Shown here one piece after another: positions 5,127-23,838 of a stretch of 34,587 bases of DNA. The DNA comes from a virus, in IMG/VR virus record IMGVR_UViG_3300043446_000762, positions 1 through 34,587 of that record; one strand, 5' to 3'. The translations under genes were made by a program, and so were the position numbers. How positions within the stretch are numbered: position 1 is the stretch's first letter; the number at the start of each line of letters is the position of its first letter. The notes beneath the pieces are model-generated. The model did no database searches. It worked only from the letters and a program-made list of their open reading frames with translations, and was not told where the DNA came from.

Positions 5127-5420
5127 ATGGAAGTCACTGTAGTCTGGAAAGACGGTAAATATCCCTCGTTTAACCTGGGCCTAGCCAGCAAAGCAGGCGC
5201 AAAACCCTTCATGGAAATCAAAGGGTGCAAGCTGATTGAAGGGCAGAAAGGAACCTTTGTCTCCTACCCTGCCCGCAAACAAGACGACGGGAAGTATTGG
5301 AATCACGTATGGGCCTCTGATGCATTCAATCAGGTAGTGATCCAGAAGGCACAAGAGTCGCAGCCGGGGAAGTCCAAGGGCGGCGCTCTGGAAGACATGG
5401 AAAGCGATATTCCGTTCTAG
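5127..5420 (+). CDS. ssb: Single-stranded DNA-binding protein with acidic tip
   Basis: A 97-aa protein whose first 75 residues alternate beta strands (MEVTVVWKDGKYPSFNLGL, GAKPFMEIKGCKLIEGQKG, TFVSYPARKQDDGKYW), compatible with one OB fold. The end is an acidic tail, EDMESDIPF, closely resembling the DDDIPF tip by which bacterial SSBs recruit partner proteins. It starts immediately after the stop of the annealing-protein gene with GAGG upstream. It is shorter than cellular SSB and not obviously of the same sequence family; a phage-specific SSB is the best reading. It would coat single strands for the Sak protein and may use the tip to bind host repair factors. Confidence 0.7.
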   Translation: MEVTVVWKDGKYPSFNLGLASKAGAKPFMEIKGCKLIEGQKGTFVSYPARKQDDGKYWNHVWASDAFNQVVIQKAQESQPGKSKGGALEDMESDIPF

Positions 5421-5432
5421 GATAATTTTTAT

Positions 5433-5519
5433 GGGGCGAATTTCCGGGCTGTCGGATAAGGCCTAATGTTGCTCAGGCCGAAAAGTGAGAGCAGGAGTTC
5501 AGCACCTGCCGCCCCACCA
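5433..5519 (+). ncRNA. tRNA-like cloverleaf ending in ACCA (degenerate or pseudo-tRNA)
   Basis: The 104-nt gap after ssb folds as four arms. An acceptor-like stem GGGGCG 5433-5438 pairs with CGCCCC 5510-5515, followed by an encoded ACCA. A D-like hairpin is TCCG/CGGA (5443-5456), an anticodon-like stem GGCCT/AGGCC (5460-5479) has a 10-nt loop, and a T-like stem GCAGG/CCTGC (5491-5509) is contiguous with the acceptor. Its 9-nt loop contains TTC. Length (87 nt) and CCA are tRNA-like, but the loop sizes are wrong and no anticodon can be assigned. TGCTC (5470-5474) could also pair with GAGCA (5489-5493), a possible pseudoknot. Confidence 0.5.
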
Positions 5520-5524
5520 TTAAT

Positions 5525-6043
5525 ATGTCAAAGCCACTAACAATTCACACTATTGACTCTTTGAAAGAGCGAACGATTGAGGTTGGAGACTGTTGGATTT
5601 GGCAGGGGTACATGGCAAACGGAAGCCCACAGGTCTATCACTACGACAAGATTAAAACTGTCCGTAGAGTAATGAAAGAACTGATCTCTGGCGAGCCACC
5701 TCCTAAGCATCTGTATATTGCAGCCAAATGCGGAGATCCTAAGTGCGTCAACCCCGATCACTTCATTTGCCGCACTAGGCAGCAGCACATGTCTTACATG
5801 GCCGGCAATACCGATCAGAAGAACATCAATCGACGGATTAAACTGAGGGAGGCGGCAAAAAAAAGAGGCCTCCAGAAATTAACCGACGATCAAATTAAAG
5901 ACATTTTGGCAAGCGATCTATCTGGCGCAGAGCTAGGCCGCAGGCTAAATGTAAGCAGAGGCTTGATTGGCCTTATTCGTAGAGGTCAGAGCAGGAAGAT
6001 TACTGTTCAAACCAATAATCCATTTGCAGGACTAATGAGATGA
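5525..6043 (+). CDS. HNH-like protein with C-terminal helix-turn-helix; catalytic site looks degenerate
   Basis: A 172-aa protein with the layout of phage HNH_3-type endonucleases: CWIWQGYMANG (23-33), KTVRRVMKELISGEPPP (44-60), then a zinc-binding CGDPKCVNPDHF (69-80). In active relatives a His (often DH or RH) stands a few residues before the first Cys; here the segment reads LYIAAKCGD and that His is missing. A resolvase/sigma-like helix-turn-helix follows (LTDDQIKDILASDLSGAELG, then RRLNVSRGLIGLIRRG, 119-154). It may therefore bind DNA without cutting, or be a decaying homing gene. No ribosome site lies at normal distance from ATG 5525; the nearest AGGAG is inside the tRNA-like element. 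Confidence 0.65.
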   Translation: MSKPLTIHTIDSLKERTIEVGDCWIWQGYMANGSPQVYHYDKIKTVRRVMKELISGEPPPKHLYIAAKCGDPKCVNPDHFICRTRQQHMSYMAGNTDQKNINRRIKLREAAKKRGLQKLTDDQIKDILASDLSGAELGRRLNVSRGLIGLIRRGQSRKITVQTNNPFAGLMR

Positions 6044-21837: not shown

Positions 21838-23838
21838 TTAAAGAACAATATACCGCGCACCACTTGGCACAGTAACAGAAACGCCCGTTGCAACAGTAAC
21901 CGGGCCAACGCTTAAACCGTTTGTTCCGGCAGTCAAGGTGTAGTTGCTGCTAATGGTTTGAAGTGTTTCGGCAATAGGACCGGAAGCGCCAGAAGACCCA
22001 GTGGGTCCGGTAGGACCAAGACTTCCGGCAGATCCTGTAGGACCAGTCGGGCCAGCAACAGTAGAAGCTGCGCCGGTCGGGCCGGTCGGACCAGTCAAAC
22101 CAGTTGCGCCTGCGGCTCCAGTTGGGCCCGTAGGTCCGGTCAAACCCGTAGCTCCAGTTGCACCCGTGGGTCCAGTGGGCCCGGTTAGACCAGTAGCTCC
22201 TGTTGCGCCTGTGGGGCCAGTAGGTCCAGCAACTCCGGCTGCTCCTGTTGCTCCGGTCGGTCCAGTGGGTCCAGTTAGTCCTGGATCTCCAGCGGCACCA
22301 GTAGGACCGGTAGGTCCAGCCGTTCCTGCTGCGCCAGTTGCACCCGTGGGACCGGTCGGACCGGTCAAACCAATACTACCTTGGGGGCCCGTAGGACCAG
22401 TGGCTCCAGCAGCGCCATTTGCTCCAGTCGGACCAGTGGGGCCAGTTAAGCCAGTAGCGCCTGTAGGTCCAGTAGGTCCAATGTTGGTGTACATCACCTG
22501 CACGGCGGTGACGATTACAGAAGGAATACGAGGGCTAACAGGCGTTGTTCCTGCCGGCAAAGTAGTCAGGGCAACAGTTGTGCTGGTGGTTGACCAAATC
22601 AACTCAATGTAATCGCCTGCATTTACAGACAAAACATAGTTGACTGTGCCAACTAGGTTTCCATCTACTCCACCATGTTTGTTTGGAATAGAAAATTTGC
22701 TGTCACTGTCAGGAATGTCTCCAGTACTACCGGAATCATTTTTCCTTACCCAAATGTTTGCATCATGGATTTGGGTATCAGTGTTAACAAACTGAGCCGA
22801 GTAAGTAATGCTGTAAACACCGGTGTAGGCAAAAGTAATCCGACTTCCAGAAACAACACTAACCCCATTGTTTGCAGGGTCAGCGCTATTAATGGTGACG
22901 GCATAAGCAGTGTTTGCGGCAGCAGCAGTTTGAGTTGTTGTATCCCAAAACGAGCCCCAATATGCCAAAGCACCGCCAGGACCGGTCGGACCAACAGAAC
23001 CAGTTGGGCCGGTAGGGCCAGTCAATCCAATAGAGCCAGTCGGACCTGTAGGACCAGCAACAGTTGAAGCAGCTCCTGTGGGGCCAGTTGGGCCAACTAC
23101 GCCTTGGCTACCCGTAGGACCGGTTGGACCCGTGGAACCAGTTGGGCCAATATCACCCTGAATACCCTGAGAACCAGTAGGCCCCGTGGGTCCAACATTA
23201 CCTTGAGTACCAGTAGGGCCAGTAGGACCAACATTACCCTGAATACCTTGTGCGCCGGTTGGACCTGTAGGGCCAGTAACCCCTTGGATACCTTGAGCGC
23301 CTGTGGGACCAGTCGGACCTTGAATGCCTTGACTGCCCGTTGGGCCTGTGGGCCCTACAGAGCCTTGGGATCCAGTCGGTCCAGTATTACCTTGAGAGCC
23401 GGTAGGTCCGGTGGGGCCAGCAACAGTAGAAGCAGCACCGGTAGCTCCTGTGGGGCCAGTCGGACCAATAGAACCAGTAGGTCCTGTGGGACCTTGTGCT
23501 CCAGGGGTGCCAGGTTTTGTCCATGCTCCAGGCGTAGACCAAACCAAAGCAGCAGTATTGCGACTATTAACAATAGTAATAGATGCCCAAACAGTATTTG
23601 TTGGGTTAGCCGGAGGATATGTGCTCCAGCCCGCAGGTGCCGTGCCAGTATTAGTCTGAAAGTCCCACGATCCACCTGTCGGCGTTGCGGGCGCTGTTGC
23701 AGACTCTTGAAAGATAAACCACTCAAAATAGGTTCCACCATAGTTAATGGTGTTGCCATACAGACCGGATGTTTCAGTACCCGGCTGTACAGCAAGAGCA
23801 GCACCTGACGTATTTCCGTAAAGTCCAATTGTTGCCAC
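21838..23838 (-). CDS. Collagen-like tail fibre with a C1q-like middle domain
   Basis: A 666-aa protein in five parts: an N-terminal virion-attachment region (1-108); a first collagen tract (about 110-289, G-x-y triplets dominated by GPTGPTG); a globular beta domain (about 290-453, with [33 protein letters not shown] and [15 protein letters not shown]) with the strand pattern of a C1q/TNF jelly roll; a second collagen tract (about 454-625); and a C-terminal beta cap ending [10 protein letters not shown]. Collagen triplets let three chains wind into a stiff rod; the jelly-roll domain would trimerise and may bind a receptor. Two rods separated by a globular node is unusual. Expression is as part of the late operon. 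Confidence 0.8.
21985..22490. repeat. Collagen-type coding repeats, tract 2
   Basis: A tandem array of 9- and 18-bp units coding GPTGPTG on the minus strand, imperfect at third codon positions. Such arrays are prone to slippage and recombination and may change length between related phages. It encodes the second rod of the collagen-like fibre. Confidence 0.75.
22975..23515. repeat. Collagen-type coding repeats, tract 1
   Basis: A longer, more varied array than tract 2, with SQGIQG and TQGNVG variants between the GPTGPTG units. Each tract contains a copy of the [13 protein letters not shown] segment, a likely recombination point between or within tracts. Confidence 0.75.

Follow-up and report, generated by a model that had tools for sequence, protein, structure and literature searches.

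Two prophage small RNAs, STnc100 and PasD, have been described as Hfq-bound and base-pairing, encoded next to Q or holin genes and provided with RIL-seq targets and predicted seeds (PMC13192938). One representative, STnc100_4, was confirmed by Northern blot in EHEC (PMC5331693), so an RNA related to the class described below is expressed. A further structured RNA encoded by a phage, the putRNA of HK022, consists of two stem-loops, measures about 70 nt and has no closing helix (PMC9378689). In the openly accessible literature covered, STnc100 and PasD were the only related descriptions found; no paper there described the GCUGAU class reported here, a tRNA-like STnc100 fold or phage RNAs that mimic 16S.

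The window, i.e., the whole stretch of DNA analysed, is the 34,587-base record of an uncultivated virus, in which a gap of 104 nt between a gene at 5127-5420 and an HNH gene at 5525-6043 is filled by a cloverleaf. The upstream gene encodes a small protein with a weak match to SpoVG; in MW202484 (terminase 78% identical), the protein beside the corresponding recombination gene is annotated as an ssDNA-binding protein. Elsewhere in the window, positions 21838-23838 on the minus strand encode a large collagen-like protein with GPT repeats, which probably belongs to the tail or fibre proteins.

The RNA element occupies 5432-5516 on the plus strand, as do all its parts. Its acceptor-like helix P1 comprises seven base pairs, formed by TGGGGCG (T5432 to G5438) with CGCCCCA (C5510 to A5516), and across the family these pairs vary on both sides. 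An AAT spacer (5439-5441; present in 168 of 187 members among the matches listed) leads to the D-like arm P2, TTCC-GGGCTGTC-GGAT (5442-5457), with four pairs and an 8-nt loop, for which the family consensus is N4-AGGCTGAT-N4 with compensatory changes in three of the four pairs. The anticodon position (5458-5490) holds a variable segment, hereafter the payload, which by lineage comparison with contig L147 consists of a hairpin GGCCT-(10 nt)-AGGCC and a tail GAAAAGTGAGA. The T-like arm P4, GCAGG-AGTTCAGCA-CCTGC (5491-5509), has five pairs and a 9-nt loop; the loop is conserved family-wide, the stem covaries, and no linker separates it from the 3' strand of P1 (5510-5516). The same 0-nt linker together with a 3-nt 5' spacer was found in 174 of the 187 listed members. 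The window element thus shows the complete geometry of the GCUGAU class: a 7-bp P1 unlinked to P4, the AAT spacer, a P2 of 4 bp with an 8-nt loop and a P4 of 5 bp with a 9-nt loop. P1 ends 8 nt ahead of the HNH start codon.

A sequence-only reading of the same DNA had placed a tRNA-like cloverleaf at 5433-5519. The cloverleaf proved real, with the boundaries shifted to 5432-5516, and the encoded CCA (5517-5519) lies beyond the helix and follows it without a discriminator base. The ACCA to which that reading had drawn attention is no feature of the family, the sister phage L012 having ACCC (CCC at the place of the CCA) and NCCA directly following the 7-bp helix in just 16 of 174 members among the matches listed. 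The loop sizes had been given correctly: 10 nt for the anticodon-like loop (5465-5474) and 9 nt for the T-like loop (5496-5504), the latter being the usual size in the family. The suggested pseudoknot between 5470-5474 and 5489-5493 could be a competing structure at most, since its formation would cost the conserved T-like stem (5491-5495) its first three pairs. The four paired arms in tRNA order do appear in the minimum-energy fold, whose stability is not unusual (z -1.47, with 17 of 200 shuffles equally stable). Since the single sequence does only mildly better than its shuffles, homologues were needed to decide, and they settled the matter in favour of the four arms.

Within the window's own lineage, a close relative, IMGVR_3300020043_004090 (terminase 94% identical), has the RNA behind the same upstream gene and ahead of a MazG gene, with no HNH gene. 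The freestanding HNH gene at 5525-6043 is absent from this place in the sister phage, where MazG directly follows the RNA, and it may represent a recent insertion or loss. In two contigs of a different phage group, with AAA/DUF669 recombination genes, the RNA stands directly after the DUF669 gene and is followed by a terminator; its acceptor helix is compensated to GGGGGTG/CACCCCC and its payload stem is GGGCG/CGCCC. The payload stem of L147 is GGGCG/CGCCC, and the loop TGTTGYTC and the tail AAAGTGAGA are kept within the window lineage. The RNA was absent from the examined loci of other relatives of the same group (Sak protein about 75% identical), so it is to be regarded as an accessory gene.

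Beyond this lineage, a direct blastn search of the window locus against phage records gave no match. Distant blastn matches to the T-like hairpin came from several enterobacterial phages and related ones, where they fell in gaps or small ORFs, and the surrounding sequence had the same architecture, with the P2 loop AGGCTGAT. Used as the query, the element of Klebsiella phage RCIP0093 had matches in 364 phage records and in 1,015 of the 5,426 complete E. coli genomes, so that relatives occur in hundreds of sequenced phages from one query alone. Nearly all of these relatives are unannotated or lie under spurious ORFs. Two pattern searches yielded chance matches: the pattern CGGGCTGTCGG..GTGAGAGC in the genome contigs gave nine, in GC-rich genes without structure, and the loop pattern gave two in 369 genomes.

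The structure of the family was assessed from two scans with gapped patterns, which contained only the sequences of the P2 and P4 loops; counts out of 191, 187 or 174 refer to the matches listed. At least 191 distinct loop-motif matches were obtained, among which, in the list, all seven P1 pairs formed in fixed register in 158, as opposed to 30 with partners swapped, while all four P2 pairs and all five P4 pairs were each complete in 175 of the 191. The listed matches contained at least 74 distinct P1 helices, and the P4 stem occurred as GCCGG/CCGGC, GCAGG/CCTGC and GTCGG/CCGAC. Pairing of P1 among the matches listed fell from 93% at base pair 7 to 69%, 46% and 26% at base pairs 8 to 10, as expected of a 7-bp acceptor, and in most members it ended after seven or eight pairs. 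In an alignment of 26 members, 98.4% of the cells were paired and 11 pairs had double changes, a result equalled by none of 500 shuffles; the double changes fell on six of seven pairs in P1, three of four in P2 and two of five in P4. The sequence-only reading had held that stems without compensatory changes in homologues would speak against the RNA; examined in this way, the stems did change in compensation.

The custom model from homologues which that reading had proposed was built from these 26 members, all of other phage lineages and none of the window's own. In the window, this covariance model, R1, gave one significant match only, which spans 5432-5516 and covers model positions 1-93 completely (47.1 bits, E 3.6e-10). 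Other members of the window lineage scored 35-40 bits and six elements found by blast 41-54 bits. A sequence-free descriptor, fixing only geometry and loop complementarity, had 114 matches compared with 0 in shuffled sequences, nearly all of them with GCTGA(T). Among the 187 listed descriptor matches, L376, which falls within an ORF, has the look of a chance match. It is well supported, by these results, that the window RNA belongs to a large and widespread family of phage and prophage RNAs. This GCUGAU-class family is uncatalogued and is not detected by any Rfam model; at the window element, Rfam models matched nothing at gathering or permissive thresholds, and ARAGORN called no tRNA over the window. 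A further class is possible, to judge from L010:8814-8923, in which a 7-bp P1 (GATGGCG/CGCCATC) and an AAT spacer accompany complementary CGCAT/ATGCG in the P2/P4 region (R1 E 0.022).

The loops of P2 and P4 are reverse complements, GCUGAU:AUCAGC in the family and GCUGA(U):(A)UCAGC in nearly all other members. The window keeps four pairs, GCUG (5448-5451) with CAGC (5500-5503). It is proposed that the two loops touch in a Watson-Crick version of the contact between the D-loop and the T-loop of tRNA. In the 26-member alignment, these pairs are almost invariant family-wide, showing complementarity and no covariation, and a descriptor search for loop-loop pairs other than GCUGA(U) gave one doubtful case only. 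Since the pairs hardly vary, the contact is proposed rather than proven.

HK620, P1, PAJU2 and E. coli prophages all contain members of the family, whose flanking genes vary from phage to phage. The RNA lies between Q and the lysis genes (Q-holin) in HK620, in a prophage of E. coli HS and in PAJU2; in HK620, it sits in the late leader before the terminator tQ. In P1 and its relatives, it stands beside tRNA genes together with STnc100-type elements, and in Ackermannviridae the RNA, or its payload, is near or in the tRNA cluster. Among the matches listed, 27 of 187 members are near tRNA genes, and 26 of 187 (14%) have a terminator within 180 nt downstream compared with 2% of random control places. 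The elements avoid ORFs, lying inside them in 50 of the 187 listed (27%) versus 67% of random places, and are mostly on the strand of their neighbours, about a third of the flanking ORFs being opposite. In the P1-like phage plasmids L171, L202 and L269, elements of the GCUGAU and STnc100 types, with different payloads, are lined up in tandem batteries among interspersed tRNA genes. In P1 (AF234172, 69845-69890), the annotated genes upl and plp overlap the payload of the RNA element, and these ORFs may be spurious or share their DNA with the RNA.

The payload at the anticodon position is hypervariable, ranges from 32 to about 95 nt and falls into about 133-134 sequence clusters among the 187 members listed. 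That of the window is a 5-bp hairpin with the lineage-conserved loop UGUUGYUC and the tail AAAGUGAGA, and a search of it against 16S and 23S rRNA gave no match. The payload of HK620 and RCIP0093 turns up again in the tRNA cluster of Salmonella phage vB_Sen_ST2 (Kuttervirus), where it forms the anticodon arm of a tRNA whose body is otherwise normal. This gene (L170:2478-2563), annotated as tRNA-OTHER, has a 22-nt insert-like anticodon arm common to lambdoid phage RNAs and no readable anticodon. The payload of L342 and L357 matches nt 243-282 of E. coli 16S rRNA (E 9e-6; SSU covariance model, E 2.3e-7) and is, by its sequence, a mimic of 16S helix 11. Phages of Yersinia, Shewanella and E. coli carry the same helix-11-like hairpin inside at least three more RNAs closed by a helix (L421:1480-1600, L422:1480-1600 and L423:1485-1570), with changes that preserve pairing. 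In the ribosome, 16S helix 11 is one of the regions to which ribosomal proteins bind, S17 among them. Moreover, perfect 5-bp T-arms occur in 6 of 133 payload clusters among the matches listed versus none in 50 shuffled sets, and the payload of L286 is a tRNA without its anticodon arm. The recurrence in a tRNA body, the 16S match and the T-arm and tRNA payloads argue for a payload with a function, in some cases that of a mimic. Only about 7 of 133 clusters among the matches listed resemble known RNAs, payload stability is barely above that of shuffles (mean z -0.41), and Rfam matches inside payloads (riboswitch, ribozyme) amounted to nothing beyond tRNA and SSU pieces. Antisense matches of payloads to rRNA or to their own phage locus were not in excess, and some payloads are 90-100% identical across different phage records. 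On the same contig as one scaffold element, L384:7454-7576 is a 123-nt tRNA whose middle is enlarged (Rfam, 38 bits) and which may be another payload-bearing tRNA.

The best explanation, held tentatively and at somewhat less than even odds, is that a tRNA-like scaffold presents exchangeable mimics or decoys of host RNA, or regulators that work in trans. The scaffold, with its 7-bp acceptor-like, 4-bp D-like and 5-bp T-like arms, would make a compact, nuclease-resistant RNA, cut or folded out of longer phage transcripts, whose payload would act in trans. In at least some phages, the payload would imitate a host RNA feature, such as 16S helix 11 or the D and T arms of tRNA, and so titrate or decoy a host RNA-binding protein or an RNA-cleaving defence. 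It is probable that the GCUGAU-class RNA acts in trans. A more far-reaching proposal, that phages of many groups would share a general RNA-mimicry platform, in which tRNA-shaped cassettes offer interchangeable imitations of host RNA elements such as ribosomal helices and tRNA arms to bind or decoy RNA-binding proteins and RNA-cleaving defences of the host, and payloads are swapped as in an arms race, is possible but less likely than not; what counts against a general mimic role is that most payloads match no known RNA and are barely stabler than shuffles. The main rival, possible although on balance improbable, takes the RNAs as trans-acting base-pairing sRNAs, in which the scaffold would only stabilize and the payload would provide seeds against mRNAs of the host or of competitors. 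The description of the sister RNAs STnc100 and PasD as Hfq-bound base-pairing sRNAs favours it, with the RIL-seq targets and predicted seeds (PMC13192938) and the Northern blot of STnc100_4 (PMC5331693) as precedent, and hypervariable payloads of ordinary stability leave room for single-stranded seeds. However, the 16S-helix and T-arm payloads keep their structure by compensatory changes, which antisense action does not need, the lack of excess antisense matches to rRNA or the own locus speaks against it, and a terminator, as Hfq site, stands just downstream in only those 26 of 187 listed members.

A role in cis is unlikely; in it, RNase P (or E/III) would cut the fold so that neighbouring mRNA segments are separated or protected, and the payload would be filler. 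Placement between phage genes and mostly on the neighbours' strand suits such an operon element, as do the 12-bp stack of acceptor and T-like arms (7+5 bp), fit for RNase P, and the short distance to the HNH start codon in the window; filler, however, agrees poorly with a payload common to a Kuttervirus tRNA and lambdoid elements and with others nearly identical across different phage records, and the third of flanking ORFs on the opposite strand also tells against it. A nascent-RNA antiterminator like HK022 putRNA is very improbable: many members do stand behind Q in the late leader, ahead of terminators, which are enriched as given above, but putRNA has no closing helix (PMC9378689), and neither the hypervariable payload nor the locations in tRNA clusters fit. 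The sequence-only reading as a whole was borne out in part, namely in that the RNA imitates a tRNA in shape. Its decayed tRNA, or any chance tRNA-like sequence of a single phage, is refuted and has practically no probability left: silence of ARAGORN and Rfam and an unexceptional single-sequence fold would agree with it, but the independent model match and covariation across hundreds of loci do not, the arms being kept by compensatory changes across unrelated phages. The HNH protein, for which it had suggested the RNA as a target, is rejected as a partner, as the sister phage keeps the RNA in place without the HNH gene and most members lie elsewhere. The recruitment of RNase P or CCA enzymes to process the ssb-HNH mRNA, which it had also put forward, may apply: the stacked acceptor and T-like arms would suit RNase P, but the CCA is unconserved and the neighbouring genes vary among phages. 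If payloads do act as mimics, the favoured tRNA-like scaffold would be a modular phage RNA tool with a breadth comparable to that of protein anti-defence genes.

Among the known systems, HK022 putRNA resembles the family as a phage-encoded structured RNA upstream of terminators and differs in lacking both a closing helix and a payload (PMC9378689), so that the window structure does not fit it. GOLLD and ROOL are likewise ornate structured phage RNAs, of unknown function (PMC12286853), but they are far larger and multimeric, with no sequence or Rfam match to the family. STnc100 (RF02076) and PasD come closer, with a P1 ...GGTGAAT, a short P2, a variable middle and a P4 GGAG..GCACC set directly onto the 3' strand of P1. 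By inspection and descriptor, STnc100 shares with the window family the architecture P1-GAAT-P2-payload-P4-P1', and STnc100-type elements occur in phages that also carry the GCUGAU class (L169, L322 and the P1-like L171, L202 and L269). In contrast to that class, its P4 has no AUCA and its P2 loop is another one, so the GCUGA:UCAGC contact is missing; the joint loss of P4 AUCA and P2 GCUGA fits a contact between those loops. With E allowed up to 10, the RF02076 model still matched nothing in the window, and the Rfam model misses the GCUGAU class. STnc100 is best seen as an architectural sister, from which we infer common descent with the GCUGAU class. In E. coli MG1655, unannotated STnc100-type elements lie in Qin between dicF and dicB (L415:19457-19580, plus strand) and in Rac between kilS and kilR (L414:8265-8389, minus strand), adjoining well-studied sRNAs; R1 matches both weakly (E 0.02-0.06). 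The family also provides a frame for STnc100 and PasD and, in E. coli K-12, for the intergenic RNAs at dicF-dicB and kilS-kilR.

With tRNA (RF00005), the family has in common the order of the arms, their lengths (7/4/x/5), the T-like arm set onto the acceptor, the size, the locations in tRNA clusters and one payload that also occurs in a phage tRNA. It differs by a 9-nt T-like loop without TTCRA, an 8-nt D-like loop, a 3-nt spacer, the lack of an anticodon, an unconserved CCA and the Watson-Crick character of the proposed loop-loop contact; the window, with its 10-nt loop and T-like loop AGTTCAGCA, has neither a 7-nt anticodon loop nor a T-loop TTCRANN. The family RNA is a tRNA-shaped RNA and not a tRNA. 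In engineered tRNA-scaffold aptamers, an RNA payload replaces the anticodon arm of a tRNA for the sake of stability. Those scaffolds are man-made, whereas the phage arrangement is natural, and it would be their natural precedent if the payloads act as mimics.
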